A DNA stretch of 64,000 nucleotides, from positions 124,001-188,000 of the forward strand of contig JABYQU010000031.1 of the NCBI GenBank assembly GCA_022264855.1, read 5' to 3'. How positions within the stretch are numbered: position 1 is the first letter of the stretch; each line of letters starts with the position of its first letter. This document shows positions 29,432 through 58,924 of the stretch, piece by piece. Origin of the DNA: Lenzites betulinus. Its lineage: Eukaryota > Basidiomycota > Agaricomycetes > Polyporales > Polyporaceae. Below the pieces are notes generated by a model. The model ran no database searches. It saw only the letters and a list, made by a program, of their open reading frames with translations, and was not told the origin of the DNA. The position numbers and the translations under genes are program-made.

Positions 29432-31178
29432 ATTACACCACAGGCAGGAGCTGGGAATCGACGCGAGGGAAGGAATAGAAAATTGGACCCAGAGTTTTCC
29501 TGACTGGGCTATATCAGTAGAAACTCGTAGGAGTGAATAGTCAAGATTTAGCCGCCCTATCGCGGCCGTTTCGCAAACGTCCACAGGCAAGCTGAGAGCA
29601 GACATGTTCGCTCTGGTGAAATGACTGGGCAACGAAGCCTTTGTATGGAATTTCTGTGGGCCGTACAGTGGACTTGAAAGTCAAACCATCGGTCGCCAAA
29701 CCGGGCCATAACTTGAATGCGCTTTGTTAGCCTCGGCTAGTCTTGGTTTGTACTCCTTTTCGGCATTCGTTCATGTTGTGGATAGGTTACTTATCCACGG
29801 ATTATCCGTCCATCAGATTGTGCACAGCTTATGTAGCATATCTGGCTGCGGAAATCGCGCGGATTGCTTAGCTTACATCAAGGCTGAAATAATCTGGAAA
29901 GGAAGGTGAAAGACAAAGCAACACACAGCTTTCTAGGGCTGGATAGGCACGAGTAAGACAGTGTATCTCTGACATTTCCGTGTCGGTAATATGGCTCATG
30001 TAAAGGTTACCTATCGTGCCCCGAGGAATGAGAGCAAAAGGTAAAATATCCGTAAGCTTGCGACACGACGCGACGCGACCCCACACGACGCAACGCGACC
30101 CCCCGACCCGCCGCAAGACACCACGCCTCCCCATACCACGGCACGCGGCCCCCCGACCCGCCGCGCCACTTCCCGGCGGCATTCCCTCGACACCGCACCA
30201 CGCCTTGCACGCTGGGCCACCCCTGAGAGCCCTCGCGCGCGATGTGCAATACACACCCACGGTCCCGCGCCACCCACGCGCGCCCCCTCACCATCCACGC
30301 GCGCCCCCTCACCATCCACGCGCGCCCCCTCACCATCCACGCGCGCCCCCTCACCATCCACGCGCGCCCCCTCACCACTCACGCGCGCCCCCTTACCACC
30401 CTTGCGCCAAGGCGTCCCCGCAAACGGCGCCGTCTGCACCCAAAAACGTAGACCGCGGGTCGTGCCGCGCACACGCAGCCATGTCCGCACTGCACGCATA
30501 CGCCGGGTCTACCCACATGCACGGGTCGCCAGTCCCCCGTGCGCGGCGACGATGAGACTCTCCTGCACACCCGGCGCGTACGTCAACTGCACCCCGCGCT
30601 CGCGCCATTTCTCCTGCCAACATGCACATCGCGCTGCACCGACACTGAAGAAGGCGGCTCGAAGGCTCCTCCGGCCGCTCAAAGACTCCTCCGGCCGCTC
30701 GAAGGCTCCTCCGACCGCTCAAAGGCTGCCCCGCAAACACCGCGGGCATCTCCTCGCGCACCGTACGTGCTCCATGCATTCCACGCGCGTCGACTGTCGC
30801 TCACGCGTAACTTCACACCGCAGCCTTCGCCTGAGCAGCCAAGGCGCTCCTTCCTGCCACGCGCCCCCGCACGACCCAAAAACGAGCTACGTTTTGCATA
30901 CCTGCCGCGCCCGCTACACACGCTGATATTCGCGGCGTTATCTGCGGTATGCAATACGCACGGGTCCCAAAGGGCGCCGCATCTCGTCCTCGCGCGCCGC
31001 GAGGATGCACACTGGCGTCCTCCCGAACGGGCGGGTCATGTCGTATCTGCGCCGTCTTTGCGCTTCGTACACACTCGTCGCATGATATGCAATGCACCGC
31101 GCAGCCTCCACGAGAGAGCAGAGATCAGCGCGATACATCCCATAGCAGGCGCGATGCCCGCGGCTCACGCTGAGGGCG
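29432..31178 (+). repeat. Left terminal inverted repeat (1.75 kb)
   Basis: Positions 29,435 to about 30,530 pair with 88356-p in the right TIR. Inner positions pair with 88006-p, because the right copy has about 350 extra bases. Differences seen are a one-base change in a C run near 30,536 and a base change near 31,015. The outer 600 bp are of mixed composition; the inner part is very GC-rich with tandem repeats. Long overlapping open frames here reflect composition and are not credible genes. Confidence 0.95.
30274..30402. repeat. 21-bp tandem repeat in left TIR
   Basis: Six to seven copies of CCACGCGCGCCCCCTCACCA plus one base (21-bp period). The right TIR has the mirror array at about 57,954-58,082. 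Confidence 0.9.
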
Positions 31179-31346
31179 CCATATTGTATCCCCCCAGCCA
31201 TTTCACTCGAGCTTCAGCTAGCGATGAATGACATACCTATTGCCACACGGTATCAATACCTCAAGCGCACGACGATCTTGTATATATTTTGTGATAGGAT
31301 TCCTCGCGCGCTATGCTAATTCTGTGAGGAACCGTCAGCGACCGGG

Positions 31347-34300
31347 CTAACTAGCAGTACAGGACTCTGAGCCTGAGGTAAGACTTACCCTGTCTAGTGA
31401 TACAGCGACAACACATTGCCTGTCGATGCCGTCAGGCGTATAAGTATACGATGCAAAGTGGGATACGATATCCCGTGTGCGTATGACATGTTGGTAGTCG
31501 TATACTTCATCATAGTAGAGTCGTGCCATGCCATGCGTGAATTGCTGATATGGATCGAAAGCTTGATGTGGTGCCGAAAGAGGCTTGTATTCGCGGACGA
31601 CCAAGTGAACCTCCTTGATGCAGGTATCCCCTTCGGTGCGCAGATGCTCGAAGATTTGAGTAATCTGTCCAGCTACGATCTCGCAGTGGCCGTCGTCGTT
31701 GGGTCCAGCCTTACGGAAGAGCAAAAAGGAATTACGCAATGCGTCATCGCGCGTCGCGAAAGTCACACCCGCGTGAGTGGTCCAGGGGAGGAATAATGCG
31801 GTGGAAGGGAGCAATGGTCGATCGTCGTCGGTGGGGTTATGTCGCGAGGCGAATGGCGCATGATCGGAGAGGGCGTTGACATAGCTCAGGAGGGCCTTAT
31901 AGAGCGTAGGGTTGAGCTCTTCTTCGGCTCCGTAATGACGGGAACGCGACCGCACAGAAGCTTCATCAGACCCAAAAGATGATACAGCCTCCATGATACG
32001 ACTTCCACGCGCAGCATCATGGAAGGCTGTCTCGAAGGCATGCACCAGTGTTCGGAACTCCTCGGTGTCTGGCCACGATTCGGAAGCCATCTGCCATCGT
32101 AATTTGGCACCGATGTAGAAGTAGCGCATGAACGTCTTCGGCATATCCGCTGAAACATGTCAATCAGTTTCTGTATAGCGCACAGAAGGATTTGTCGACA
32201 TACCTGCTCGAAAGTTGGTATTCAGCCGCTGAAGCAGCCCATTATACCGTTCAAACGGGAACGTCCACCAGGATAGGGTAGGGCCAAAGAGAAGTAGACA
32301 CTCCCTCAGGTGCAGTGACAAATGATGGTTTGGCACGAGGTCTGCGTCGTAGAGTGAGCGGAGCCCTCGCAGATAGTTTAGCATGTGAGTGTCGAATGCA
32401 TGGGCCCGCTCTGCAGACATGGTGCGTCGAGACACGAGGTCGACAGCCGCAACAAGATGTAGAAAGTTCTTCAAAGCTAGCCGTTCATGTTCTGTGGAGG
32501 ACGCAGTTCCCCACAACCTGACGAGTGTGATGACCATGTTGACCGTGCACACCGTACGCCAGTGGTCGGCTTTCAGCTTGCCATGACTCGCGCTGCCAAA
32601 TGTTGCTGGGGGCTTTGAGAGCCAACTAGGGAGGTGGGCGGCGCGAATGTCTCCTCTGATCGCTTCTAGAACATTCCCAGAAAACACAGTGTGGCCAAGC
32701 GGGTCAGGCTCAGGTGCGGTGTCGGCGGATATATGGAAATGATCGGTTGCATAGGAAAGAGGGGGAGGGATGCGCAGGGATTCAACGCCGTCCGGCGCCG
32801 ATGAGACCTACATGAGCCGTCAGCAGGAAGAAGTGTCTGGCTACAGACGGAACATACCCAAGCAGCGAGTGCGCTCGCGAGGTCGGCTTTCGTCGGCGAC
32901 GATTTCATGATCAAGACAGAGTTGTTGAAGCTGATGACCGCCTCCAAGTAGTCCTTTCGGACGGACGCAACCATGCTCGACGAGCCCTTTCGCAGGCCTG
33001 TCACAATGCGCTGCAACGCCGTCCTCTGCATATCGGGTGTATGAGCCGTCGATCGCTTGCGTTGCTCATCGCGGTTTTCTGCAGTCTTGAGACCCCATAT
33101 GGAGATGCAATGGTGATTGAGCTCGCCCAGAAACAGATTGTGCATAGCGTCAACGAGAGCGAACCGCGTGGGATCCCAGTATGGTAGCCGCAGCATCTCA
33201 GACCAGCGTACGCCGTACTTGTCGAAGAGGGCCTTGCGCCGGGCCTCTGTCTCCGCGTCCCTCCACTCCTCTGCTGCTTGAAGATGTTCGCTCCAAGACC
33301 GAGACATCGGCCAGGTTTCTCTGTCGAGATTGCAAATGTTGCCTTTGAGAAGTGGGCAGAACGAGCAGAAGCGGTGCGCGCTGTGATGTGCAAAACCCGC
33401 AGTCTTCCGCAAGGCGGGGAGATCGCAAACAAGAGGTATGACCGCTGCACGAACCAAGCAGCCTGCCGGTCGCTCCACCGTTTCACTAACATACACACCT
33501 CGATCCCAGAAGACAATCAGCTCGTCGATGAGCGGCTTGAGAAGGTGGTTGAGCTGCGCTAGATGCGGTTCCCTGGGTCCAGGAATGATTGCGACAAGGT
33601 AGATGTTCTCAGGTCGGTAACGGAGGTGGGGAGGAAGGTTGAGACAGGCCATGTAAATTGCGCCGATGGAGTGCGATTTGCCAGCCTGCTTGTTGCCGTA
33701 CGGGTTGAGCCAGTCGACGAACAGAGAGAATGCGAGGTGCAACGAGCCGTCTGGTTGGACGGAGAACAAGGTACGACCGTCAGGTCCGACGAAGTCGCGT
33801 AGCGCCGGGGTGCTCATGATGTCGCTCCAAGTGGTGCTGTAGCCAGATCGACCCCAGCCTGCTCTCATCAGCGATTCAAGACCCGGACGGGACAGTAGTT
33901 CTGCGATCCATGACTTTGCGCTACGATAGACGTAGGGTCGCCGAGGTACGCACTCCAGGTCGTCAATACCTTGCCCAGCTTTCCGTCTGCGACGACCCTT
34001 CCGACGATCCTTCGCTTCCAGTAGCAGCTCGTCGCAAGGCGGCTTATCAGTTTCCACGAAGTTGCACCTCATAGGATACGTTGGTGGTCCGTCGTTCGTG
34101 CTCGGGGGTCCAGGAGGGTATATGGCAAAGCAGCTTGGACATGATGCGTAGACCACAAGCTCGGGATCAAGATCCAGGAGTTTCAGAGCCGTGCGGACGT
34201 CCGTTGGAATCTGGCGAAGGAGGTTGCGGTGATCCTCGGTCAGCGCAGAGGGGCCGCCTGACAGCATGATAGACCCGAGCAGCACGACTTTGATGGTAGC

Positions 34301-35369
34301 AAGTATGACATTTGCGTACGGACGTGCAACGTGAGCCAATGAGTGCAACGCGCAGACCATGGTAAGCGCAGCGATGAGGAAAGGTTGCATGTTCTGTCTA
34401 AGACGTGAGACTGATGCTAGTACAAGCGTGAGCCGCTGCAGAAAGACACTCATATAATGGTACGTACGAGGGGGCACAATGAGCGGAGTACTTGTGTTTG
34501 AATGGAGGTGGAAACCGGGCAAGCGCGCGAGTACCTTCTCACGGTCCCATGAATAATCCTCGAGAGTGTCAAGGCGACTTAGCTCGGACTTCAATCGCCG
34601 TAGGATGCTTGCGCGTTGCCCATCCGTGGCCTTGTCCCCGGTGGGGAGCTGCTTTGTCTCGAAGCATGACACCTCGCCAAGTAGCCAACTTCGGTAGGCG
34701 AGGAAGGCGATGTTCTGCGCGTCGTCTGCCATGAGGGGTGGTCGTTGATCGAGGAAGGTCGTCGGCTTGGCAGAGAAGGTGAGGTGTACGGTCTTTGGGA
34801 CACGACGAGATCGATGATGCAATTGGCTTTGAACCTGGGACAAGTATTTGTTGCGGACCTCGAGTACATCAGAGACCTAGGAGGAGGATCGTATGGGTTA
34901 CAAGGGGGATACCCGCGCATACCTGTACTCACCGGAATTGGCAGTGGCAGATCCGAGCGTTGCCCCACTGATGCACCAGGCTGAATATCTCCACCCTGGA
35001 AGCGGGTTAACCAGAGCATCAACACAATAATGATGGCTACAATACCTGCGCCATTCGTGGTCGTTTGCTGGCTCGAGTGTCCTCGTCACCGGCCGATGTG
35101 TCATCTTGCTGGCGCTTTGCAGTCGAATTTCGACCTTCGGCCTGAGAGGCAGATTCGCCGATCGAAGACATCGTCGCCAGCATGATGGTGTCTTCTATTA
35201 TCGCAACGTCACGAGCCGCATGCTGGGACGCCCGCGCTCGTTTGCCGTCCTCGACCTTGTGGAGTTTCCGAGTGTGGAGGGGCTGGAGTGACCCTGGGCG
35301 GAGGTCCCCCCGTTCATCTTCGTATTCGTCAAGAATACAGACACTGCAGAGGCAAGGAGCGTCAGCCAT
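31347..35369 (-). CDS. tnp2-type DDE transposase of the giant element
   Basis: Five exons join in frame: 35369-35046, 34995-34933, 34876-32858, 32807-32204, 32149-31347, giving 1,270 aa. All introns are GT...AG and 50-57 nt. The N-terminus has a CLCSVC motif and a basic stretch (SKRPRMA). The central part matches tnp2 (PF02992-like) transposases of mushrooms. Landmarks: a CPSC cysteine pair (about aa 375), FSLFVDWLNPYGNK (about 513-526, first catalytic-type Asp), VCDLPALRK (about 612), HRFCSFC (about 631) and VDAMHNLFLG (about 704). The C-terminal ERYNGLLQRLNTN segment precedes the last intron. The start is the ATG at 35369, which opens the conserved N-terminus. No stop or frameshift is seen, so the gene looks intact. 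It points toward the nearby left TIR and presumably moves the element. Confidence 0.85.
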
Positions 35370-35568
35370 GTAAGTCCTAGACTCCTAGATCACAGCTTGT
35401 CTCGTATTTGCAGTCAATTATGAGCGTAGAGTCCCATAACAGACAGACCTGAGCTATTGAGGGCGATGGAGGAGGAGGAGGGTCAGAAGGCGCAAGCAAG
35501 TCGCTTTGTCATTGAACAATCGATAGTGTACAAGCCAAAACGGGAATGATGGTGATGGGAGGTGTTCA

Positions 35569-37286
35569 TCATGCTCCTAGCGCCTCCCATATGGGTGCAT
35601 CGTTCTGGCTGCTGCTGGGATGCCAGCTGAAGATGAACGATGTGGAGATGACGGCGAGGCAAAGGGACGCGGTCAGAATGAGCAGCAGCGAGGAAGGGGA
35701 GGGCGCCGAAATGCTGTGATCAACTTCTGCAACAGCGCACTGGTTCACGCTGTGCGAGACGTCAATGGCGACCGGCGAAGTAGCCAGGTCTCGCTGGGAA
35801 AGCGAACCAACAGTGTTGGTAGGTACCACATGCTGCGCGAAGGAATCAGCATCGGCATTAAGCGGCACACATTGCAGACGAAGGTACTCACATTGGCGGG
35901 GGAGTTCTCCTCAAGGGGGGATAGCGGGGTACTATCACGGACCGCAGGCGTGGGATCAGACATCGCGGTGGGGTCTTTGTGGGGTGAGATAGCGTCTGTG
36001 GGTGCGGCGTGTTTGCGGTCGGCGGTGACGACAGCATGGTGGTGGGACACATCGAGCTGCGATGGTGACCGCGCACTGAGGCCATCCAGAGTGATAGCGG
36101 CAGGGCCGGCATATTGATGAACGACGGGGCCAGTGGATAAGGAAACAACGCCATCAGCGGCGGGAGGGGAGTCGCTAACACTTGCGGCGGCAGAGCTGTA
36201 GAGCTCCTCTTCCAAAGAGGGAAGGACGAGAAGGAATGACGAATCTGGCTCAGAGCCGTACAGGCTCACACTGTTGGTGAGCTCTCGCAGCTTGTCCGCT
36301 AATGTCTGAGCGTGCTGACTGCATTCTTCAGCATGTTCAAGCCGGCCTCCAAGGTCTTCCTGGCGAGCCCACAGGTCGGCTATATCAAGAGTCATACGCT
36401 CGATGAGACCCTTGTCGGCCGTGCGCTGTGCTTGCAGCGTGGCGATATGGCGCATCGCCTGGGTCACCTGGGTCTCGAGAGCACGGATAGCGTCTGCCGA
36501 GCACTGGTGTTGCCTTTCCATGCTCTTTCGTTCGTCGGCGATGATTTCTGCAACATATATTAGATAATATGGACGCATCGAGAATGTAGTACTGACTTTG
36601 CGTCTTCAGCACGAGCTGCGTCGATTTTTGAAGGGACCCGGAAACATGATCTTGGATGAATGACATGTCTGCCTCGACAGAGCTGACCCTTTTCCCCAAA
36701 CCAGCCTATGTCATGTAGATTCAGCATCGGGGTACTCTCTCAGTGTGAAGGAGCCCACCTGATCACGCCGCACAGCACGAACTATGCGGTTGAAGCTTGT
36801 GATAGACTGACTATTATCAGCGTATTCTATGTAGGAGCCGTCGGGCAGTAGAGCGAGGCTGCGAGATGCAGTGGGACTGCTAGGTCGAGAGTCGAGTCGA
36901 CAGCCGGCGAATGATGCGGCAAGAGAGGTGAAGTCCTCATCGAGATTGTGAGGGACGTAGCCATCCACAGGAAGCCCGTCCGAGTGAGCGTCAGATTCGA
37001 AACGCTGGGAGATGGGGCTTCCCTCGGCAGAAGTACTGGAGGAGACGGAGGTTGCATCCGATATCGGATGTGGTTTAAGGGGGCTCGTGGACACAGCGTT
37101 CACCACTGCGATGATAGCAGGGCTCGCTTGTATGACAGGCTTGGGGCCAGGCAGACCGGTGCCGTCGACCAGATCTGGCTTAGAGATGTCGGCGGGGCAC
37201 GCAGCAATGATATGTGAAGCTAAAGAGATTTCTCGAGGAGGAGAGGATGGACAGGTGATCGCGTCGACTTCGCGGGGGGCATCCAT
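35569..37286 (-). CDS. Coiled-coil protein with C-terminal membrane anchor
   Basis: Four exons (37286-36759, 36705-36597, 36547-35892, 35832-35569) give 518 aa in frame. The N-terminal 170 residues are Ser/Pro-rich and acidic. A long coiled coil follows (about aa 178-290, with heptad-like ERKSMERQHQCSADAIRALE and IADLWARQEDLGGRLEHAEE), then another Ser/Pro-rich linker. The end is a hydrophobic segment LLLILTASLCLAVISTSFIF (about 480-499) and a 19-residue tail. This is the topology of a tail-anchored protein such as those of the nuclear envelope or ER, but no family is recognised. It lies 200 bp upstream of the transposase start in the same orientation. ATG at 37286 is chosen as the first ATG of the coding-like sequence; an upstream in-frame extension lacks coding character. 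Confidence 0.65.
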
Positions 37287-37622
37287 TGAGAGGGTGAGCG
37301 CGTAGGAAGAGCAAACGAGTCGGGACACGACGAGGAGGGGCCAAGATGAAGGGTGAGTGTGGCCAGGAGCAAGGGTCTTAGCGGGGAGAGCACATACTTG
37401 GCTGATGAGGAACAATGCCCTTTGTAAGGACGCGAGGGTGTGAGCGAAGAACTCCTAAGGACGCAAGGCGTGTTTTGAGGACGAAGGATAACGTCCTTTG
37501 TCTCTGGAGGTAATTGCCGGGCTCTTGGGTTATCAAACCAGCCAGCGTACTTCGAACGTTGATCACACCTGATGTCCTTCTGGGTCCCAGAGAGATCGTC
37601 AAGGAGGAAAGGAACAATATTA

Positions 37623-38375
37623 ATGGGTGATCTCGAACCTACGCCGTTGGACAGAGTTGAACGGACGCAGAGTGGTTCCGAGGTTTTCGGAGCCTTGGCA
37701 TCGACGCTCGAGCCGGTCGTGGGAACTCTTACTCACGTGCATATTGACTCGGTCAACATGATCCGAATGGTCGCCCCTCCTTCCTCAGAACTACAACCAT
37801 CCAACTTCGGCCAGGTCCTGGCCCGCCATGTACGTGTCCACACATGATACGCAACTAATCACAGCTCTCATAACTGTCAACCTATAGTTCTTCAAATCAG
37901 TGGAACTTCGACACAACGCGGCTCCCGCAGTCCACATGAGGTACGTGCTTCGTACAACATAGCGTATTTCAATAGTTGACTAACACTCTATTCAGCGGCA
38001 TTCAGATCTCCAGTGTCTCATTCACGGATATGGATGACGAAGGTCGCGCACATCTCTACCTCGTGAAGGGACGGCTCGAAGCTCTTGTTCACGCACAGGA
38101 GTACCTCGGGACTGCCTTGGAGTCATTGCGAATCACGCATGCGCACATCTGCATGGAGGTCGAGGAGTTGGGCAGATATATCATAAACCTGCCCCCGTAT
38201 ATCGACCGCACTCCAGAGCAGTTCCGTGATGAGTCTGGCACCCGCACCTCCCGTCCGCCCCCCGTTACCAAGGCTATTGTCATGAAGCTGAGAGTAAGTG
38301 TCGGTATCCAATCAATTATCACCTAGCTCGTTTCTGACATCTCCACAGGCTTGGACAAATGCTCTCCGCCGCTGA
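37623..38375 (+). CDS. Hypothetical 194-aa protein
   Basis: Exons 37623-37829, 37888-37940, 37996-38293 and 38349-38375 join in frame to 194 aa. The protein has no recognised domain. It includes an ALVHAQEYLGTALESLRITH helix-like stretch and a short basic end (AWTNALRR). Consistent splice sites support a real gene. It is divergently arranged with the coiled-coil gene (337 bp between starts), which may share a promoter region. Confidence 0.6.
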
Positions 38376-41619: not shown

Positions 41620-43162
41620 CTACGCAGCAAGGAACATAGCTAAGGCGAAAGCTACAAGAACGGCCGCAGCTGCGCTCCATACCGACTTCAAATATATTAG
41701 CTTAGCATTCGACAAGGTTCCAGCATGCATACTTACCACATGCACATCAAATGACAGAGGCCAGCCATCGTCTCCAGCCGTGCTTGCGGTACCTGACACT
41801 TACGTAGTGAACACAACTGGCAGGATATTGTATTTGCTCGGACTATACCTTTGGTTAAGGACTCCTCGGCCTTCCATAAGACTACAGATGGACTTGAATC
41901 ATCCAGTACGCCGCCAGCAATGAAGAACTCGTCAGCATCCTCGTAGTAGTGTGCCTAAATGATGATATTCAGCCCTAGATCAAGGCGATGTCTCGACGGT
42001 AGATCATTACCGCCAATGACAGCACTCGTCGGCCGCTACCTACATAGCTTGTCATTAGCAACATATCACGCACCGTGTTTGATAGCTTAAACTGACCGGA
42101 AATGGCGAGTGTCTGCATCTTCCTCGATGTCGATCCATCTACATACCAAATATTCACCTGTCCGACTGTACTGCCGCCTATAATCGCACGGCCGCCATGT
42201 GCGTAGACGACAGGGACCGGATAGCCTTTACCGAAGTCGTACGGAACGGTCAACACCGCGGCATCTGTGTTGATGTTGTAGATGTCAAAACCGTATACTA
42301 GATTGGATACCGCGATATGTGAACCATCTGGAGAAAGGCTGGATCTTGCCCTGACGATGTCATCGAGTTAACAACTTGGAGAGAACGTGCACATCAGATC
42401 AAAAACGTACATAAAACCAGGAGCGCTGTCTCCAAGTCTCCGTAGCACGGACCAGTTGTTTGCATCGAAAAGGCTTCACGATGTCAGCGAAGAATCTGAA
42501 TGGTCTTATAAGAACGTACTAGATACCATGTGACATGTACGTCACGACAAGGGTATCAGCACTGCGTCCAGAGCCTTTCGACCACTGGAGGCCGGTGATA
42601 ATAACTTCCTCTCCACCGGCTTCAATGGGCTTCCCGATTTCCCGTTCTTTGGTAGAATATTCTCCTTCTGTACATAAAGGTTATGTTGCAATTGTCAGTC
42701 ATAATTCTGTGTTCGAAGGACATTACTCACCTTCCTCGTTAATCTTCCAAATGAAGAGCTCGCTATGAGCTCCCGATGCAAGACGGTCTCCACAGCACGA
42801 CAGATGCTCAACCGGGTATGCATGACTCCACATCCCCAGTAAATGCAGTTTGTCCTGTATAACGATTTGCATTAGTACAGTAAGGAACGACTTCACGCGA
42901 TACTCACGGATGCAAGATGGAGAGTCATGACAGTGCCATCGCTCAGTCCGCAGAATATAATAGTTGCGTTGACCCAAGCTGTCGAGAGGATCGACGAGCC
43001 CGGAGAACAAGTGTGTAAGAGCGCTCCGGTCGTAGTCTCCCAGATGCACAATGTGCCCCCAAGATCTGAAGTCGCAAGTAGAGCGCCATTTGGCGAGAAC
43101 GAGACTTGAGTGATACCTTGCGAGTGAACATTGGGGAGTGTCCTCGCTAGTGTATATCGCAT
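41620..43162 (-). CDS. WD40-repeat protein with C-terminal membrane segment
   Basis: Exon 1 (43162-42908) starts MRYTLARTLPNVHSQGITQV and shows clear WD40 units: VSFSPNGALLATSDLGGTLC then IWETTTGALLHTC. Further blades follow in exons at 42854-42731 (LASGAHSELFIWKINEEG), from 42667 (GLQWSKGSGRSADTLVVTYM) and around 42,420-42,460. Others lie at 42,350-42,100 (GSTVGQVNIWYVDGS) and about 41,950-41,850 (a GGVLDDSSPSVVLWKAEE segment). The last exon encodes WSAAAAVLVAFALAMFLAA followed by a stop (41622-41620), a single C-terminal membrane segment. Exon borders beyond the third are approximate. WD40 propellers are protein-interaction platforms; the membrane anchor is unusual. It appears intact. Confidence 0.75.
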
Positions 43163-43664
43163 AGTGAAGTAGTATTCTGACAAGATGGGCGAACAGGAGT
43201 AGAGAGGAGGCGCGGGGACAAGGCCTACTCGCCTTCCACGTGCTCCTGCGGGCCCGGCGCGACCACGAGCACTGCTAAGTTCTGACCCAGCGCCAATCCG
43301 AAGGATGCTCTTCAAGTTGCACAAGTAGTCCTACATACTCGAGCAACGTCCGGTACGTTTATAGTCAGCTCAAAGTTTTCTATGCTAATTATCTTGCAGG
43401 CGTGTGTGGAAGGCAACACTGCGTGAGTGCCTTTCCAACAGCTGGCCGCGCAGAAGTGTTAATGGGCGTCCCGCGCAGCCTCGCGGCGCAGCCACGACTT
43501 ACTTACGCGAACTCGTGCACCCCCGCCGCCTCTCGATCGACTTGTGCGCAATATTCATCAAGAGTCCTTTGTGTGTATGAGTGCACGTACCAGATGATCA
43601 CCGATTGCTCGTATCTGTCAATAATCGTCTTTATGTACCCTCAGGACTGCTCCTCCACCTTAAG

Positions 43665-46279: not shown

Positions 46280-47700
46280 TTTCACGACATAGACGGTCTG
46301 CACGGATTGCGGCGGGATGATTATCGAGTACGATGCCGCCGCGGGCAAGGGTTCAGCGTGAACTGCGGTACGGTCGTCGAAGAGAACACCATCGTTAATG
46401 AGGCGCGCTGACTTCGCAGCAGCTTATCATCGCACGGAAAAGGACAATCTTGCAGGTGACTTTCGGCAAAACGAGCAATAGAGCGGCGATGGTACAGGGG
46501 ACGTTCGTCAGGTGCAAGTACGTTCGCACCCCTATCGACGCTTTCGCTCGTTCTGATGTGTGCTAGCGCACGCCCGTATGGGCGGGATGTTCGGAAGCAG
46601 GGGGAACACGGAAAGCAGAGAACAGACGATCTCGAACGGTGCGCATCTCCATATGGCACGCTGAACGCCCCCTGACCTCCCGCACAGCGAGCAGGAAGAT
46701 CCAACAAGTGGCGAACACACTCAAGCTACCCGAAGTGGTTTCCCTCGCGGCGACGCGCCTGTACACCCACGCTGTGGAGCACAAATTCACAAAGGGCCGA
46801 TAGAGCATGAACGTGGTCGCGGTCTGCCTCTACATCGCCTGCAGGCAGAAGGAGACCCGGAACTACATGCTCATCGACTTTAGCGACCTACTCCAGGTAG
46901 ACGCGTCCGCTCTCCGCCCGACCACGCGCTCACCATCACCAGGTCAACGTCTTCGAGCTCGGGCACACGTACCTCCAACTCGTGCAGACGCTCAACCTGC
47001 GGCTGCCGCTGGTCGACCCCTCGCACTACATCTCACGCTTCGCCGCGCTGCTGAAGTTCGGCGACGAGACACACCAGGTCGCGATCGACGCGATACGGCT
47101 CGTGCAGCGGTTCGACCGGGACTGGATGACGAAGGGCCGACGTCCGGCGGGGATCTGTGGCGCGTGTCTCCTGCTCGCCGCACGCATGAACAACTTTCGG
47201 TGGAGCGTGGCCGAGATCGTGCAGGTGGTGAAGATCGCGGACATGACGCTGAAGAAGCGCCTCGACGAGTTCAGGAGGACGCCGAGCGGCGCGCTGACCC
47301 CCGCGGACTTCCGGACGGTGTGGCTGGAGGACGAGATGGACCCACCGGCGTACACGAAGGGAAAGGAGCGGGAGGAGAAGGAGCGCATACTGCGTGAGAG
47401 TGGCGGAGTGCTGCCCGACGAGACAGGTGAGGGGAAAGGTAAAGGTAAGGCAAAAGCGAAAGGCAGGAAGAAGAAACGGAAGAGAGGCGAGGAGAGCGAC
47501 GAGGACGACGCAGAACCTTCACCTCCCCCTGAGGAGTCTGAGTTGGCGCACGTCCAGCCCATAAGCCTATCGCTTCTCCACCAGGGGATCTTGGCCGGAA
47601 CGACGGGCCCCCTCCCCCTGTTCCTCCCCGACGACGGAGACGACATCGCATTCACTATGTCCCCACCGACGTCTTGTTTAATGCCCCCACGCACCAAACG
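46280..47700 (+). pseudogene. BRF1: Captured BRF1 (TFIIIB subunit) gene copy, broken
   Basis: The reading matches transcription factor IIIB subunit BRF1, which recruits RNA polymerase III. It has a zinc-ribbon relic (VCTDCGGMIIEYDAA, then NCGTVVEEN one frame over, 46,292-46,390), a SREQT-type segment, and cyclin-fold pieces: KIQQVANTLKLPEVVSLAAT, then NVVAVCLYIACRQKETRNYM. The second cyclin repeat (46,960-47,330) includes LVDPSHYISRFAALLKFG and TKGRRPAGICGACLLLAARM. A Lys-rich acidic linker (GKGKGKAKAKGRKKKRKRGE) follows. Frameshifts break the zinc ribbon, and an in-frame TAG at 46801-46803 precedes the CLYIACR segment. An intron (about 46,896-46,941) is retained, so the copy came from genomic DNA. 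It covers most of BRF1 up to the linker, not the C-terminal conserved domain. Confidence 0.8.
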
Positions 47701-47702
47701 CG

Positions 47703-48083
47703 ATGCTCCCTCTCGTCGCCACCAGCGTCCTCCCCGAGCTAGATCCCTCGCTCTCAGACCCAGACCTCGGTCGCCAGTCCGACTCCATTCGCTCTGGCAT
47801 GGATCAGGAGGGCTCGCGACACAAGCCTGTCGACTACGCCCGGGACGTCTACGGGCCACCCACCAGCGGCTCTGATCTCGAGGACGGGCCTATCTCCATC
47901 TCTACGTCCTCGCCGGACCCCTCGCTGCTCCGCAGATACTCTATCGCGCACGACGCGGCGCCCTCTCCGACCTCTACGCGCTCTGCCCTGCGCAAGCTCG
48001 CTATCGCCGAGGACACCACGTCAGATGAGTCGTCGCTCAGTCGCAGTGTGGGCCATATCACGTCCCCAGTGCTCGCTCGGTAA
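47703..48083 (+). other. Open frame of unknown origin
   Basis: A 126-codon open frame, Ser/Asp/Pro-rich (for example SGSDLEDGPISISTSSPDPS), between the BRF1 relic and the Dicer-like piece. It may be a linker or another captured fragment. A GTAAGTG donor follows directly (VLAR|GTAAGT). No domain is recognised. Confidence 0.3.
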
Positions 48084-49310: not shown

Positions 49311-50039
49311 GCCCGTATGTACCTCAGAACTGTTCTGCAAAACGATTTGTTTGTGTCATACGACAGTATAGAATACATAGAATGAGCCTTAATACTTCGT
49401 TTGCGCTAGTAATTTATGCCTCACATGTTATGGGACGGTTTGTCTGGCTTCTTTCGGGCGCCCAAGCACCCAACAAGCGCCAGTCCACTCACTCGTCGGA
49501 AGCTCTTCTCCCGGCTTCAAAGCTTCACTCATCACTCACTCACTCACTCAAGTACTCACTCACGCGCGCGCCTCTTGCCAGTCTATCCCAAACGCCCTTT
49601 GGTTGGTACGCATTGGATTGTCCGATCATTAGGGGGCTATATACGCTCACTATTTGGATTTGGACTCAGATTTTGGGAAGTTTGGCATCATCGCAGGCGG
49701 GGAGGGATCAACGCCAATACCGAAGTGAAGGCCGAGAGGTTTTTGCAGGCTTTGTGGGAGGGCCCTGGTCACTCGACGCAAACAGGGGATACTGTTTATC
49801 ACGCACAGCAAGTTGTAAGCGAGATGCTACAGCTTGTTATTGGATACAGTGGGTGGCTGGGTGGTCTGATATACCATGAACAGCATGTTCATACAAAGAC
49901 GACGTGACTGCGCATGTTGTCTAGAGTGTGGCTTCAGCCCGATACTTCAATGAGCTGGTCTGAGCGTGTGGTAAGGTTTCCGCGTCGTGCACGCTGGGTT
50001 TCCTATGGGAAACGAGAAAGCTCGGAAATCAAGAAGTGG
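49311..50039. other. No gene supported
   Basis: Two overlapping + strand frames (49,382-49,907) have no recognised domain and cover an ACTC microsatellite (about 49,525-49,565). Confidence 0.35.
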
Positions 50040-51130
50040 CTGTGCTTCTAATTCTGAAAGGTATGAGGCCGTAGGGCTTGGCGTTCCTCTATGGCAGCGA
50101 TGAACTGCGCGGAGCGGAGACGCAGATCCTGCGGGCACTCATCAAAGTGCGCGCCGCGCGGAACTCTTGATCGAGCTCGTCCGTGGAGCAGGGGCGCGGG
50201 CATTACGGGTAGGTCATGAAGAACACGTCGGCGAGACCCTGTATGTCGCCGTCCTCGGCGCGGAAGGGACGCATCTGTGGCGGAGAGCGCAGTCAAATAT
50301 ATACGCGAGGAGCGGTTAGCTTGCCTGCTGGATACCTGGTTGAAGTCGATGAGGTAGTATCTGGCGCATCCGGGGATGCCTGAGCCGGCGACGACGAACT
50401 CGATCTCGCGCCCGTCGTACCCGACCTGCCAATGTATGCGCGAGAGTATTGCGCCCATGCCCGCCGCGACGTCCTCCAAGGGTGAAAGCGTGTCCGCGTC
50501 AGATTGCGCGACGAGGGCCGTGTAGCGATTTATGTCGAGCGGGAAGTTGGCCGAATTGACGAAGCGCGATGGGCGATAACTTTGCCGAAGTAGAGGTGGC
50601 ATAGTAGGGGGGGTCGGGACGTCCTGCACGGTTGCGTGGGCTGAGTAGAATAGGCCGCGCACGGTGTTGACCAGACGAGGGAGCAGCGCGTGGGCGCGGT
50701 CCATGATGTATGCGGTGCTGCCGAAGTGCGTGAAGAGGGCGCTGCTTAGAACTTGGCGGGGCTCGCGCCGTCTGCGCGAAGGAGGAGAAGGGGAAAAGTT
50801 GATAACTTCTTGTATCGCGGGGTCGTGGTACTAAGCGTGCGGGAGGTGGGCCGCAAAGAGCGCGCGAGAAGCGAGGGAGCTGAGACCTAAAGCGGAGGGC
50901 GCCGTACATGAGGGAGAACTCGGCGCGGAGCTCGGCGGTGCGGAGGGACACGTGGACTACTTCGTAGACGAAGGGCTGGCCGCGGAGGGAGTACACCGTT
51001 GCGAAGTATGGCGTGCCGAGTGCAGCTGGAGTGAGTCCTGCACGGATACCTGATGCACGGCCGGCGACGAGTCCCTAGCTCTCCCCCATCAGAGTGGCTG
51101 GAAGCGAAGGGTTGCTGTACGCACTTCATA
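50040..51130 (-). pseudogene. DUF3669-like gene copy, broken
   Basis: Minus-strand pieces resemble the DUF3669 (PF12417) proteins common in fungi. In order they are: AELRAEFSLMYGALRF (about 50,930), LLPRLVNTVRGLFYSAHA (about 50,690), PSRFVNSANFPLDINRYTAL, GMGAILSRIHWQVGYDGREI-EFVVAGSG, CARYYLIDFNQ (about 50,350) and an AQFIAAIEERQALRP end (about 50,080). Frames change between the pieces, and the usual DPYYPRP motif is degraded. It is the third decayed host-like gene in this 5 kb block and supports repeated capture. Confidence 0.6.
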
Positions 51131-51662
51131 ACCCGTACACGAGCGCGAGGGGCCGGGTTGCGCGGAGGTGTGGCCGCTTGAAAACTTAAACGTTTGAACA
51201 CCCAAATTGAAGTAGGCACTCAGGTTCGTCTTAACCGCCATATGTTAGTTCCCTAATTACGAACCCGAAGTGGAATATGACATCACATACTGTCTTAGGA
51301 TCCTATGCATGGTCGCCTTGTTGACCTCCTACTTGGAGGTCCAGCACGAGCGAAGCGTCGTCGTTGTCGTTGTCGCGGATGATGTGACAAGGAGTCTCGA
51401 CGCAGAAGAGGACGCAATGCAGCGCGTGAGGATCGAGAGAGAATTCTCGCGCATGAGGAGCATATCGAGCACGACTGTATTGGTGAGAAGGGCGTGCGCG
51501 ATGTGCTGAATCCTAGTGAGTAGGACCTCCGTCCAGAAAAGAGATTCTTACTAGCGCTCAAGCGCTCACTGAGTGATCACTCATCACGACTTCCACGAGG
51601 CAGATACTGACGCAGCCGCTGCACTTCTCTTGTCACTCTTAACAAGTCTTCAAGCTTCATAT

Positions 51663-52778
51663 ATGCCGGTTGACGAAAAGCACGATCCATTCGATCCATC
51701 CCGTTTCGACTTCGAAGATACATCCACTGCTAGTGAGTACTAGAACCGCACATGGCGTACATGTGCGTAATTGTTCGCTCTGCTAACAACGCGCGCGACT
51801 GGCGTAGTTCGTCGACAAGTCCATTTCGCACCCGCTGTTTCTTCTACCGCCGCAGACAATCCGGCGACTCAGACTTCCAGCGTCCCTAGTGCCAATCTTT
51901 CTCGATCAGCCGACTCTACGCAATCATCGATGTCTAGTGGACGTGGAGGGGCCAAGAAATCCTCCGCCTGGTCAAGCCGATTTTTTGGTGGTCGCTACTC
52001 GGTCCTCTGGCTCACCTCGGTGACTGCTGCCCTGTCGTTCGTTACCGCGCTCATCGCAATGTGCCAACCCTCCTTTGCCGCCATCGTTCAGGAGTCGCTC
52101 TCGTCCTTGGGCCTGCGAGGCACTTCCCGGACGATTAGTCCGGCGATCTACGACCACGTTCAGCAAGCAATCAGGATCGCTTTCGAAAGTACGGTGCAAC
52201 CTCGCGATTTCGCCCTTGCTTCTGAAGGTGCCCAGGTGGTGCCTGCACTCACGTCTCGAGTCGACTTCATCGAGGGTGGGAGCCAAAACCTCCCGGAGAA
52301 CGTCTTGACGGAGGGACTCCATCTCGAGTCCTGCTGGATATTCCCTAGTCCCCGGATGCAGATAGGAATTCGTTTCCGCGAGCATCACTTTATGCCCACT
52401 CACATCGCTCTCGACATGGGTATCTCCTCAGGCTTTCGAGCGATCATGCAAGCTCCGCGTCATGTCGTGCTATGGGGCCTGGTCGATGGAAATGCCAAGA
52501 GACTAGCGTACGAAGGAAAACTCTCGGAATACCGCAAGAGTGTTGCGCGGCTTGGGACAGGACCTGCCGAATCTCTGGGATACACATTCCTGGCGCTGGC
52601 CGAATTCGAGTTCGATCCGTATGCTGCCTTTCCTTTGCAGACTTTTCCTGTGGCCGATGCAATCGTCGATGCACAGATGACGTTTGGGGTGCTGGTTTTG
52701 GAAGTACGGAGTAATTGGGGAGGTAGGACAACGACCATATGTCGTGTCCGTGCTCTTGGGGATATACGGGTGGTCTGA
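51663..52778 (+). CDS. SUN-domain protein
   Basis: Exon 1 (51663-51732) and exon 2 (51808-52778) join through a 75-nt intron into 346 aa. The N-terminus is acidic then Ser-rich. One membrane segment follows (SVLWLTSVTAALSFVTALIA, about aa 88-107), then a short linker and a C-terminal SUN (Sad1/UNC-84) domain (about 150-345). SUN landmarks: PRDFALASEGAQVVPALTS, SCWIFPSPRMQIGIRF, APRHVVLWGLVDG, LGYTFLALAEFEFDPYAAF and FGVLVLEVRSNWGGRTT. Family members sit in the inner nuclear membrane and bind KASH tails in the perinuclear space, linking nucleus and cytoskeleton. The reading frame is intact, unlike the neighbouring captured copies. It could be captured host cargo or a long-term element gene. 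Confidence 0.8.
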
Positions 52779-53301
52779 AGGCTCTCGGTATGTCTTTGTT
52801 ATCTAGTCTTACGTCATTCAAGCTGATAGAGCATTCGCCATGCCCAGTATGTGCCGTAGTTGAATTGTCTCGCCACTTGTGTATGCAACATACTATGTGC
52901 AGTTCAGAGTCCGGAGCCGAAATGTCCGTAGTCCATAGCGAAAGTATATGTGAGTCCTACGTATGTATCGCGCATATCACAGTAGATGAAAGCCAATTAC
53001 TATGTGAGTGTTGTCTGGCGAGCGACGCGTTTTCTTAGCTCAAGCATGTAGAACATATCCATGGGATGCTAACTTAGGTTGATCACACGAGGCCAAACGG
53101 CTGCGAGACACGCCCAAGGACCCCGGCATTTACGGATGTGGACGTCTCGGGACGCCGCGCTGGACAACGGTGTCCCTGGGAGGCACGCGGCGAAAATAGA
53201 CGCCCGTCAGACAAAGGTTATTGACGGTGAGTGCGTCTTTAACCTTGGAGTGATCGTCCTGCTTCCGGTGCTCGTTCCTCCCCCGTTTCATATCTCTCAA
53301 T
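52779..53301. other. Intergenic region between SUN and accessory genes
   Basis: No long conserved-looking frame. It should hold the SUN terminator and the accessory-gene promoter, but I cannot point to specific signals. Confidence 0.3.
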
Positions 53302-56300
53302 ATGACAGACAGCGCCGACATCTCGCCGACAACCACCGCAGAGGGCTCTACGGCCTCGGGCGCGGTGCAAGGTAGTACAAGCGACGTCATGGTGAATGCC
53401 CGTCCTAGCGAACCAAACGCAAACCGCGCAGGAAGCAGCCAGACTTTGCAAGAATCACTTACAACACTCTCGAGCCCAACACCGTCTGTCAGCTCCGTGG
53501 TCAAACACGCCAAAGCTGGGAAGAAGCGCGCCACAGCTAGTGACACTGAAGACGAAGCATTTGACCATGAGAAGTCTGCGAAGACCGTCGAACGGGTATG
53601 GAATCTAACTCTGAACTTGTAGAATGCTGGGCTAATTCATACTCTGATGCATAACCGCTAGAGTTGGGCTCCGCCGTTGAGTCTCAGGAAGCAAACGCAT
53701 GTCTCCCAACATCTGCAGTTGTCTGCCGCAGCACCGGCTCGCCCCGTCGTGGATGCTCTCCGTCGCTCGGTGCCTTCTTCAGCACAGCCCAAGACTCCTG
53801 AAAGACGCCACGGCTTGGTGAAGGTAGGTTTAAGAGTCCTCGATACGCAGACTCCTCTCTAACGTCAGCCGGTGTTTGCAGAATAAGCTTTCTACGCGTC
53901 CGCCACGCTCTCCCGACAGCGACTGGTCTCAATCTGAGAATGAAGAGCTCGATAACAACGACATCCCTCAGGTAGTAATACAGTCCAGAACTGCGCGCCC
54001 TGCATTTGTCTCTTCATGCTGACTCCTTCGACAGGTCGGATATCCAATGGTGGGGCAACCACAGCTACCTCCAAATGTGGACGTCATGCACATGGTTCAA
54101 CCCGTGTTTGCCGCTTCGATGCAGCCTGGCCACCCGCAGGCTGTTCAGGTTCAGTATGCCCCTCCCTATCAGCCTCAATACGTACAACAATACCCCACGC
54201 AATATATGCCACCCCAATTTTTACCACAACAAATGGTATACTCGGCGCCGCCCATGCAGTTCAACACCCCCCAGGCGTCCCCTGCTCGTGGCTTCAACCA
54301 TGATACTGAGCAAACACCGCGACCACGTCAGCCAACAGCGCGCCCCCAATCGACGTTACGCACCCAATCGACATCGCGCACCCAACCGACAGCTCGCACT
54401 CAACCGACGGCGCGCACTCTACCGACGGCGCGCACTCTACCGACGGCGCGCACTCAACCGTACGCGAGAAAGAACCGCCGGAACGTACAGGTGAGTACGA
54501 TTAACTTGCTCGACCCGCAATTTGCTGACAGCGCGCCTGGGCATGGCTACTACTCTAGCTTGAGATTGAACCTATCAAAGCCAAGTTACGAGCAGTCAGA
54601 GTCGCCGGAAAGAAAAAGGCGTCGGCAATGCTGTTGGATGACGTGAGTAGTTATTCCGCAAGCTCCTGCTAATGCCTCCCACTCACGCTGGCCCGCAGGA
54701 TCTGCACTCGAGCGACTATGCAGATGGTTCGGATGCGAGCATAGACGTGGACCCCCAAGCGCACCGCCAACATGACCCAGATGACGGGATGTTCGACGAA
54801 GAGTTTCAAGGCATCCCTTCAGGCTCCGTAGGCGCTTCAGACAGCGAAGGGGACGACGCCGCCGAGCGCATGGCCGTCGAGCGTATGGCCGTCGAGCACA
54901 TGGGTAACGACGAGGGCATGGATCAGAACGGAGAGTATGTAACTGCGGATGAGGAAGAGCATGATAGAGATGCAGAAGATGACGCGAGCGTCCAGGTACG
55001 CTGATTTTGTTGATGATAGCCTTGACATCTTGACAAACATGACTACCCCCTTCGTCCAGGGCCAAAGTTCTCAACAATTCGTACCCTCGACTACGACGCC
55101 TCAGTACACACCCCCCACTCACTCTCGTCGGAACCGCCGCGGCCAGGAATATCATCAGGTATGCTCCTACGCCATCGTAATGAAGGACCTCGCTCACAAT
55201 GCTCATTGCTAGACCGCGGAGGAAGGCCGCTCGACTGGCTCCAACGATATGCCGCAAAACTTTGCGGTTATGATCCTGGACAAGTTCCAGAGCATCAACG
55301 CGTCTATGCAGGAAAGAGATGAACAAAACCGCCATTTCCAGTACGTGCCCAACCTATGCATCCAGGCTTCACTCACACATATCATCTCAGGGAGCGCGTG
55401 GTAGGAAGCATCAACAAGCTGTACAAGAAGATCTCCGACGTGCAACATGTAGCTCCTGTCGTCGCTAAGCGCGAAACGAGGGAACGTCGACAGCGCGCGC
55501 CGCGAGGGATGTTGTCCCGTGTGATCGCTCAGGGGCAGACGTCCACAATGACTCCCCAAGAGAGCGCCAGGATGATCCAGAAGGAGAAGCTGTACCTCAA
55601 GAAGCTCCAGGTACGGGTCGGGTCATTCACAAGAGTGTGCGATAGCTAACACTCGCCTGCAGAGAGTCGTACGCACTCAAACCAAGTCTATGCTTGGCTT
55701 CAAAGGCAGAGACTACAAGACTATGGCACGACTCAACGGAGCCCTCACGGACGCCGAACTCGAAGCATACGAGGCGAACCAAGACCCCAGCTACTTCGCG
55801 ACGCGGAGGTTCCGTTTGGACTTCACTCGGTCTTGGGGAGACTTCCCTTTCAACATCGACGCGCGCGACCACTTCATCCATACCCTCATACGTGATTTCG
55901 AAGGCGGCTCGTACAAAAGCGCAGGTATACCGTCGCGTTATATCACCGAGGGCCACATCGGCGCCGCGTTCGACACCTACATCGAGACCTGTCGTGTCAA
56001 TTTCCGTCTCATCGCGACGCCTCTCGATGAGCAAGAGCACGAAAGACGGAAGCAGAGGGCGAGAAAGAACTCACGCAAAAATACAGTACGTGCTTTGCTA
56101 TATGCGTAGCGATGACATGATACTGATAACTTCCTTAAAGACATTCGTCACACGCGAAGCCGTCTTACTTGAAAACGGCTGGAGCCATCATCTCGACCTG
56201 TTCGCTCGCATCAAGCCTGAATACATGAGTGGCGACGAGACCGACCGCGATGAGGATGACAAGAGGATACGCCCTCATTCGTTCACTGGGGAAGAGCCCG

Positions 56301-56617
56301 AATGGATGAGCGAAGCGTACAGGGAATTCATGCACACACTCGATGACTGGCACTACGACAAGTGGGCCAACGGCGTCGACGGAGAGCTCAAGGGCGGTAA
56401 CCCCCCGCGCACGCGCAACTTCTGTGGTAAGGTTGTCAAAACGAAGGCCCCCAAGGGACTCTGGCGGAACTGTTACAACGCTGCCTGGCTTGCGCAACTC
56501 AAGCCTTACCAACGTCGCGGGCTTCATGTGATCGAAGAAGACTACAACTTCGAGCTACCAATGTTGGGGACGGAGATGGGAGGGAAGGGCGATGAGGACA
56601 TCGAGATAGACGAATGA
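53302..56617 (+). CDS. Accessory protein of the giant element (909 aa)
   Basis: Eleven exons join in frame: 53302-53595, 53662-53823, 53882-53971, 54035-54490, 54559-54642, 54699-54995, 55060-55158, 55213-55340, 55391-55610, 55663-56085, 56141-56617. The N-terminal third is Ser/Pro-rich, and exon 4 is Gln/Pro/Tyr-rich and ends in about seven PTARTQ-type repeats. An acidic stretch follows (exon 6), then a helical region (VGSINKLYKKISDVQHVAPV). The C-terminal part appears folded: RTQTKSMLGFKGRDYKTMAR, TREAVLLENGWSHHLDLFAR, an MSGDETD acidic turn, and NCYNAAWLAQLKPYQRRGLH. The last block recalls hypothetical proteins that accompany tnp2 transposases in Agaricomycetes, so a TnpA-like DNA-binding helper role is possible but unproven. 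It is intact and points toward the right TIR. Confidence 0.75.
54328..54465 (+). repeat. 18-bp coding tandem repeat
   Basis: About seven copies of an 18-bp unit (CCGACGGCGCGCACTCAA type) inside exon 4 of the accessory gene, each encoding a PTARTQ-like hexapeptide. Units near the centre are most alike. Confidence 0.8.
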
Positions 56618-56827
56618 ACAGTGTGATGGTGCGACTCTTTGTTGAATGCTATGTCTAACGTCTGTTGTATGTCCAGAAAGCGCGTGTCGTTGATGGTCGT
56701 TGCCCTGTGTGTACAAGTATCCGGAGGGTAATCAGAAATCAGTACCTTTGTTGACGCCGGGTGAGTTGTTCGGGCATTCATACCTTTTACTATACATGCT
56801 TGAGTGGGGATGTACGTCATGACATGA

Positions 56828-58924
56828 CGCCCTCAGCGTGAGCCGCGGGCATCGCGCCTGCTATGGGATGTATCGCGCTGATCTCTGCTCTCTCGTGGAG
56901 GCTGCGCGGTGCATTGCATATCATGCGACGAGTGTGTACGAAGCGCAAAGACGGCGCAGATACGACATGACCCGCCCGTTCGGGAGGACGCCGGTGTGCA
57001 TCCTCGCGGCGCGCGAGGACGAGATGCGGCGCCCTTTGGGACCCGTGCGTATTGCATACCGCAGATAACGCCGCAAATATCAGCGTGTGTAGCGGGCGCG
57101 GCAGGTATGCAAAACGTAGCTCGTTTTTGGGTCGTGCGGGGGCGCGCGGCAGGAAGGAGCGCCTTGGCTGCTCAGGCGAAGGCTGCGGTGTGAATTTACG
57201 CGTGAGCGACAGTCGACGCGCGAGGAGATGTCCGCGATGTTTGTGGGGCAGCCTTCGAGCGGCCGGAGGAGCCTTCGAGCGGCCGGAGGAGTCTTCGAGC
57301 GGCCGGAGGAGCCTTCGAGCGGCCAAGGGTCCGCGTGCGTTGTGGGGAGCGCTTTGGCTGCTCAGGCGAAGGCTGCGGTGTGAAGTTACGCGTGAGCGAC
57401 AGTCGACGCGCGTGGAATGCAAGGAGCACGTACGGTGCGCGAAGATATACTCGCGGTGTTTGTGGGGCAGCCTTCGAGCGGCCGAGAGTCCGCGTGCGTT
57501 GTGGGGAGCGCTTTGGCTGCTCAGGCAAAGGCTGCGGTGTGAAGTTACGCGTGAGCGACAGTCGACGCGCGTGGAATGCATGGAGCACGTACGGTGCGCG
57601 AGGAGATGCCCGCGGTGTTTGCGGGGCAGCCTTTGAGCGGTCGGAGGAGCCTTCGAGCGGCCGGAGGAGTCTTTGAGCGGCCGGAGGAGCCTTCGAGCCG
57701 CCTTCTTCAGTGTCGGTGCAGCGCGATGTGCATGTTGGCAGGAGAAATGGCGCGAGCGCGGGGTGCAGTTGACGTACGCGCCGGGTGTGCAGGAGAGTCT
57801 CATCGTCGCCGCGCACGGGGGGACTGGCGACCCGTGCATGTGGGTAGACCCGGCGTATGCGTGCAGTGCGGACATGGCTGCGTGTGCGCGGCACGACCCG
57901 CGGTCTACGTTTTTGGGTGCAGACGGCGCCGTTTGCGGGGACGCCTTGGCGCAAGGGTGGTAAGGGGGCGCGCGTGAGTGGTGAGGGGGCGCGCGTGGAT
58001 GGTGAGGGGGCGCGCGTGGATGGTGAGGGGGCGCGCGTGGATGGTGAGGGGGCGCGCGTGGATGGTGAGGGGGCGCGCGTGGGTGGCGCGGGACCGTGGG
58101 TGTGTATTGCACATCGCGCGCGAGGGCTCTCAGGGGTGGCCCAGCGTGCAAGGCGTGGTGCGGTGTCGAGGGAATGCCGCCGGGAAGTGGCGCGGCGGGT
58201 CGGGGGGCCGCGTGCCGTGGTATGGGGAGGCGTGGTGTCTTGCGGCGGGTCGGGGGGTCGCGTTGCGTCGTGTGGGGTCGCGTCGCGTCGTGTCGCAAGC
58301 TTACGGATATTTTACCTTTTGCTCTCATTCCTCGGGGCACGATAGGTAACCTTTACATGAGCCATATTACCGACACGGAAATGTCAGAGATACACTGTCT
58401 TACTCGTGCCTATCCAGCCCTAGAAAGCTGTGTGTTGCTTTGTCTTTCACCTTCCTTTCCAGATTATTTCAGCCTTGATGTAAGCTAAGCAATCCGCGCG
58501 ATTTCCGCAGCCAGATATGCTACATAAGCTGTGCACAATCTGATGGACGGATAATCCGTGGATAAGTAACCTATCCACAACATGAACGAATGCCGAAAAG
58601 GAGTACAAACCAAGACTAGCCGAGGCTAACAAAGCGCATTCAAGTTATGGCCCGGTTTGGCGACCGATGGTTTGACTTTCAAGTCCACTGTACGGCCCAC
58701 AGAAATTCCATACAAAGGCTTCGTTGCCCAGTCATTTCACCAGAGCGAACATGTCTGCTCTCAGCTTGCCTGTGGACGTTTGCGAAACGGCCGCGATAGG
58801 GCGGCTAAATCTTGACTATTCACTCCTACGAGTTTCTACTGATATAGCCCAGTCAGGAAAACTCTGGGTCCAATTTTCTATTCCTTCCCTCGCGTCGATT
58901 CCCAGCTCCTGCCTGTGGTGTTAC
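56828..58924 (-). repeat. Right terminal inverted repeat (2.10 kb)
   Basis: Inverted copy of 29,432-31,178 with about 350 extra bases. The excess lies at about 57,166-57,570. There a unit of about 160-185 bp (TTGGCTGCTCAGGC through GTGAGCGACAGTCGACGCGC to GGCAGCCTTCGAGCGGCC) occurs three times, against once in the left TIR. Short CTTCGAGCGGCCGGAGGAG arrays (about 57,250-57,330 and 57,625-57,700) also vary. Long open frames across this GC-rich DNA are not considered genes. Confidence 0.95.

Follow-up and report, generated by a model that had tools for sequence, protein, structure and literature searches.

What kind of mobile element can carry inverted ends of about two kilobases, and do the genes between such ends serve it? 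These questions are raised by E1, a giant element in the genome of the fungus Lenzites betulinus (37.4 Mb in 108 contigs, whose labels are given here as C-numbers). The window analyzed is a 64,000-bp stretch, C34:124001-188000 (contig JABYQU010000031.1), and element coordinates are given as window positions. We are highly confident that E1 is a CACTA/EnSpm transposon, complete in structure and probably both autonomous and young, and one of at least four, probably five, related giants in this genome. A first-pass annotation of the window had taken E1 for a DNA transposon of giant size that carries genes, encodes a tnp2 transposase and has very long inverted termini, and in this it was right; its suggestion of a new subgroup with a 7-bp target duplication did not survive the comparison with related elements presented below.

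Ends of the Element and Target Site

BLAST of the window against itself recovered an inverted repeat pair at 29.4-31.2 and 56.8-58.9 kb, and alignment of the two arms places E1 at 29,436-58,920 (29,485 bp). The left terminal inverted repeat (29,436-31,178, forward strand) measures 1,743 bp and the right one (56,828-58,920, reverse strand) 2,093 bp, with 3 mismatches over 1,739 aligned positions and 25.6 kb between the arms, in agreement with the first-pass annotation. (In one arm comparison the inner limits were set slightly differently, at 31,174 and 56,816.) The right arm is about 0.35 kb longer than the left, and the extra length consists of tandem repeats.

At the limits of the arm alignment, E1 begins with CACCACAGGCAGGAG... 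(29,436) and ends with ...CTCCTGCCTGTGGTG (58,920); the termini common to both arms are CACCACAGG... from 29,436 and ...CCTGTGGTG up to 58,920. The element is thus bounded by 5'-CAC...GTG-3', and the trinucleotide TTA abuts it on the left (29,433-29,435) and on the right (58,921-58,923) as a 3-bp target-site duplication. Such an abutting shared 3-mer arose by chance with a frequency of 0.016 in 100,000 random position pairs from the window.

Subterminal repeat arrays are a trait of CACTA/EnSpm elements. The outer 0.6 kb or so of the left arm has a moderate GC content, and the inner 1 kb or so is GC-rich with tandem arrays of 21-bp units (30,270-30,398) and 20-bp units (30,653-30,727). GC-rich arrays, which may be of this kind, were found inside the ends of both E1 and the related element E2, described below, and also downstream of all five transposase relatives whose DNA was taken.

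Transposase and Assignment to CACTA/EnSpm

The transposase gene model lies just inside the left arm on the reverse strand (31,347-35,369). With four GT-AG introns (35045-34996, 34932-34877, 32857-32808 and 32203-32150), splicing from 35,369 to 31,347 yields 1,270 aa without an internal stop, and the product matches the Pfam family Transposase_21 (tnp2) at E 6.5e-16, which bears out the uninterrupted tnp2 transposase annotated earlier; DUF1258 matched below threshold only. The model contains D517, D614, C633, C636, histidines within 963-968, and E988. All 12 of the strongest relatives in the genome retain the two aspartates, the two C(2)C cysteines and the final glutamate, and the histidine region reads HHL(S/A)LH in 10 of these and QHNSLH in the other two.

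According to Kojima (2025; PMC12730594), CAC..GTG termini together with 3-bp duplications fit EnSpm, and the CMCT group has C(2)C and H(3-4)H in common. E1 combines CAC...GTG termini, a 3-bp duplication and a tnp2 transposase in which D, D, E, C(2)C and H(3-4)H are all present. Judged by these sequence features, it is an element of a known superfamily, CACTA/EnSpm (CMC/CMCT group). The first-pass annotation had contrasted E1 with CACTA elements, but its CAC...GTG ends and 3-bp duplication, seen again in four relatives, are what CACTA/EnSpm elements have.

Related Giant Elements in the Same Genome

A search with the E1 transposase frame gave 62 genomic matches (of 81 candidates, 61 were scored), 12 of them, besides itself, at E <= 5.3e-83. 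Downstream DNA was taken for five of these 12 strongest relatives, and ends were sought for every one of the five except C81:9471. Both ends were located in all four cases, in one of them (E3) across two contigs. E2 (C2:35087-79222; 44,136 bp) has arms of about 1.2 kb with 99% identity and the duplication CGT; E4 (C2:94873-119988; 25,116 bp) has arms of about 1.8 kb with 94% identity and the duplication CGG; and E5 (C15:61355-80025; 18,671 bp) has arms of about 0.8 kb with 98% identity and the duplication AGA. The ends assigned to E3 lie at C81:92932, adjoining a transposase at C81:95685, and at C64:197237, with the duplication TCA. They are identical at 83 of 83 compared bases, over which E5 and the C81 end are 78% identical, and both face the high end of their contig. 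We infer that E3 is one element split by the assembly over C81 and C64, with a size of at least 44.0 kb (20,229 plus 23,788 bases up to the contig ends). Other transposase loci include C2:19183 and, more distant, two on C65 and one each on C1, C44, C87 and C98.

Accordingly, CAC...GTG ends and an abutting 3-bp duplication are present in all five elements with both ends known, E1 included and E3 across two contigs. Inverted repeats of about 0.8 kb or longer were found in four of the five, the comparison in E3 covering 83 bases. The first-pass annotation had proposed looking for copies with 7-bp duplications of their own; the duplications abutting the related elements are 3 bp long.

Several further ends were noticed. 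One, at C81:88690, agrees with the first 20 bases of E1 at 19 positions, and a search for its mate found none. The E1/E2-type end pattern gave 14 matches in the search against 10 for a reversed control pattern, so that the pattern alone proves nothing. Another end of the E5/E3 type (CACGAGGGGCATT) was observed at C49:333042, 2.3 kb from the contig end.

An Accessory SUN-Domain Gene and P3

Besides its transposase, E1 carries two genes with relatives in the other elements. The SUN-domain (Sad1/UNC) open frame of E1 (51,771-52,775, forward strand; 335 aa) matches Pfam Sad1_UNC over residues 176-330 at 25.7 bits, with a cut-off of 22, and one hydrophobic stretch precedes the domain. Downstream on the same strand lies P3 (55,576-56,614), probably of two exons with an intron from about 56,086; P3 has no Pfam match, and even a loose Pfam threshold produced no usable hit for it or for the other frames. 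Neither gene, nor the rearranged TFIIB-family copy described below, features in the first-pass annotation. The P3 query, the frame 55,646-56,614, spans the probable intron and partly represents another frame of the first exon.

The SUN frame has eight other matches in the genome, including matches inside E2, E4 and E5 and on C64 (E3); those inside elements are stop-free, with 28-38% identity. P3 has nine, inside E2, E4 and E5, on C64 (E3) and in five other places, with 34-38% identity in E2, E4, E5 and C64; other P3 matches lie 9.5-19 kb from transposases on C1, C87, C98 and C65. Relatives of both genes are therefore present in all five elements, in the order SUN then P3, and SUN precedes P3 along the direction of transcription in all six close pairs (E1, E2, E4, E5, C64 and C72). 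E1, E4 and E5 also share a layout in which an outward-pointing transposase at one end is followed by SUN and then P3 toward the other end.

Thirteen strong transposase loci, which with their surroundings make up 1.3% of the genome, have seven of the nine P3 matches and four of the eight SUN matches at a distance of no more than 20 kb (binomial P 2e-12 for P3 and 2e-6 for SUN, with a limit of 20 kb chosen after the positions had been seen and with matches treated as independent). Some matches speak against the association. The pairs on C72 and C64 have no strong transposase nearby, although the C64 pair is explained by E3 and the C72 pair is at a contig end; a SUN match on C54 is accompanied by neither P3 nor a transposase; and one SUN match on C65 is 35 kb from the nearest transposase. 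The C72 pair (C72:3386-8766) and the transposase at C81:9471-11015, each at the start of its contig, could be one split element. On C65, two equal-scoring SUN matches in opposite orientation (C65:956079-956558 and C65:980506-980985) lie 24 kb apart, as if within long inverted arms. Between the E4 transposase and the arm lies a second P3-like piece (C2:117720-117941), recognized by its match to the first-exon frame of P3 (32% over 74 aa, E 1.7e-5).

Could an ancestor have captured SUN and P3 on a single occasion, and have they travelled along since then as passengers that do nothing for the element? E1 offers a precedent for capture in a TFIIB-family gene copy, rearranged and apparently broken, that was recognized by sequence matches at 46,299-47,872 (forward strand). 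Its frame 46,901-47,872 encodes a TFIIB repeat, with residues 2-259 being 93% identical to C88:18501-19274 and residues 254-324 being 76% identical to C17:71329-71565. Two pieces starting at 46,299 and 46,361, which we take to be zinc-ribbon-like, are in different frames with no space for an intron between them, and the copy as a whole is presumably BRF1-like. We infer that this stretch is a captured, rearranged and broken gene copy, and the same standing applies to which copy is the original. Capture of host genes thus happens, and the stop codons crossed by the P3 matches also fit a passenger origin. Against this, SUN and P3 relatives are found in all five elements at 28-38% identity, with SUN first each time, and the SUN matches are stop-free, whereas the captured TFIIB-family copy is rearranged already at 93% identity. 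The presence of both genes in every element, set beside this early rearrangement of a captured gene, makes the strongest case for their serving the element. We regard the passenger explanation as rather unlikely, though it is the strongest of the alternatives.

Proposed Mechanism and Its Weak Points

Under the favored interpretation of E1 as a probably autonomous CACTA/EnSpm transposon, the transposase would cut at the CAC ends and insert with a 3-bp stagger, as its family and the duplications suggest. The GC-rich tandem arrays in the arms are candidate binding sites for the transposase or for P3. Host fragments, such as the TFIIB-family gene and others, may have been picked up as DNA, and SUN and P3 may form part of the element's machinery as partners of transposition. 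SUN and P3 might even tether the element to the nuclear envelope, a step that we hold to be much less likely than the others. In this scheme, SUN would reside at the inner nuclear membrane and P3 on the GC-rich end arrays, jointly anchoring to the envelope either the element or the form released by excision. The scheme is speculative and probably wrong; if true, anchoring would favor spread, target choice or biased passage through meiosis. To our knowledge, no DNA transposon encoding a nuclear-envelope tether was known earlier, and the E1 lineage would in that case be the first. More generally, a SUN protein that works for the element would link transposition directly to nuclear architecture.

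A number of points weigh against this interpretation as a whole. Movement of the element was not observed, and the local comparison of its joined flanks, described below, found no empty site; its exact family is represented by a single copy found in the assembly, and the join of E3 across contigs is presumed. Support for the SUN domain is modest (25.7 bits where 22 is the cut-off, with SUN2 structures matching only at E 0.01), and the relatives of SUN and P3 are known as search matches. The SUN-P3 block is inverted in E2. Finally, the P3 matches in E2, E4, E5 and C64 cross 2, 2, 1 and 5 stop codons, which is the best argument against a role of SUN and P3 for the element; since the P3 query crosses a probable intron, these stops may be introns or decay.

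Other Explanations for the Structure of E1

A composite of two opposite copies of a short non-autonomous CACTA element bracketing host DNA would account for the partly host-derived interior of E1. Against it, the left 300 bp of E1 matches only the two E1 arms in the 37.4-Mb assembly (E <= 0.001). The inner edges of the arms, at 31,178 and 56,828, have no GTG/CAC terminus, and E2, E4 and E5 follow the same plan with different arm sequences. The composite was rejected on the absence of other matches to the left 300 bp and of inner termini, and we consider it very improbable.

A segmental inverted duplication or an assembly artefact, rather than a mobile element, is equally improbable. The window does hold another near-perfect inverted repeat that could be artefactual (19,722-27,110), and no empty E1 site, which the first-pass annotation had envisaged as a junction of the two flanks, was found when the joined flanks were compared locally with the loci obtained. 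Copies of a repeat in the left flank (77-81% identical) end at least 13 bases short of the junction and none crosses it, and repeats on C32 that resemble the left and right flanks, in the same order and about 1 kb apart, are too weak to count. Against a duplication or artefact, arm similarity ends at CAC/GTG with 3-bp duplications in four single-contig elements and a probable fifth. The repeat at 19,722-27,110, 2.3 kb to the left of E1, consists of two 3,654-bp arms that differ by 1 mismatch and enclose an 81-bp spacer; no duplication was seen at its ends, and it may be a palindrome or an assembly artefact.

A new tnp2 subgroup with a 7-bp target duplication has next to no probability: ACAAGCC does flank E1 on both sides (29,425-29,431 and 58,925-58,931), E5 has a comparable repeat (GGGTGGA) near its ends, and a 7-mer shared within 14 bases of both ends occurs in only 0.4% of random pairs (frequency 0.004 in 100,000), but ACAAGCC lies one base beyond TTA and 4 bp off the ends rather than abutting them as first annotated, and the E5 repeat lies one base (left) or zero bases (right) outside a 3-bp duplication that is itself perfect. 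No comparable 7-mer accompanies E2, E4 or E3, and the 3-bp rule holds in all five elements; the 7-bp duplication was rejected on these grounds. As a separate observation, the targets of E1 and E5 (two of the five elements) carry a 7-bp direct repeat with 11-12 bp spacing around the 3-bp duplication, possibly reflecting a target preference.

Other Features of the Window and Genome

Upstream of the transposase, an open frame on the reverse strand (35,748-36,605) has weak sub-threshold Pfam matches only and aligns over 111 aa, with 31% identity, to sequence upstream of the E2 transposase (E 3.7e-9). The cargo also includes a WD40-repeat gene or fragment on the reverse strand (41,978-43,330), for which WD40 is above the Pfam cut-off in the frame 42,896-43,330 and sub-threshold in the frame 41,978-42,367. 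Outside E1, an inverted pair of about 620 bp with 90% identity spans 14,772-17,166, has the ends TGTTGTAG.../...CTACAACA and resembles a fold-back or DNA element. Elsewhere, a 1,082-aa open frame at C81:104976-108221 is presumably a Ty3-type retrotransposon polyprotein.

Comparison with Known Systems

Typical CACTA/EnSpm inverted repeats span tens of bases, and plant Pack-type or transduplicating CACTA elements capture pieces of host genes. E1 shares host-gene capture with these plant elements but is apparently autonomous. It resembles CACTA/EnSpm in its CAC...GTG termini, 3-bp duplication and a DDE transposase bearing C(2)C and H(3-4)H, features listed for the group in PMC12730594, and the elements described here differ in their size of 18.7-44 kb, their arms of about 0.8-2.1 kb and their SUN and P3 genes. 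Our searches of open-licence literature found no report of a SUN domain with a CACTA transposon, of a SUN domain with a transposase in a basidiomycete, or of a basidiomycete CACTA element with long terminal inverted repeats. Neither a SUN-P3 pair nor the kilobase arms turned up in the literature searched, where P3 itself was not a search subject.

Among enlarged relatives, the red alga Chondrus crispus has large En/Spm families of 16-20 kb with 4-5 open reading frames (PMC6431247). They are likewise CACTA elements with extra reading frames, yet smaller than four of the five elements here, and the passage describing them is silent on SUN genes and kilobase inverted repeats. In fungi, CNEST and CNIRT6 of Cryptococcus neoformans are, like E1, CMC-group elements; CNEST is described as about 7.2 kb long, with 33-bp terminal inverted repeats, a 2-bp TA duplication and a start of CACGG (PMC12810828). 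Plavaka is a fungal CMCT transposase with an accessory TET/JBP gene in some families (PMC12730594). E1 may differ from Plavaka, with a Pfam match to Transposase_21 and none to TET/JBP in the 20 frames scanned. The same source characterizes KDZ (Kyakuja-Dileera-Zisupton) elements by a KDZ transposase and a 7-8 bp duplication (PMC12730594); E1 has Transposase_21 and a 3-bp duplication, which does not fit KDZ.

Starships, too, are giant fungal elements with cargo, and eight of them, of 42-606 kb, are reported from the basidiomycete Tremella fuciformis (PMC13066641). Their captain is a tyrosine recombinase, whereas E1 has a DDE transposase and long inverted repeats; no captain domain was found in the 20 E1 open frames scanned, and the left-end gene is the DDE transposase. 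In the elements described here, a cut-and-paste superfamily, CACTA/EnSpm, attains 18.7-44 kb, with arms of about 0.8-2.1 kb, together with host DNA, a SUN gene and a second shared gene; fungi thus have a way of forming giant elements with cargo that is distinct from that of the tyrosine-recombinase Starships.

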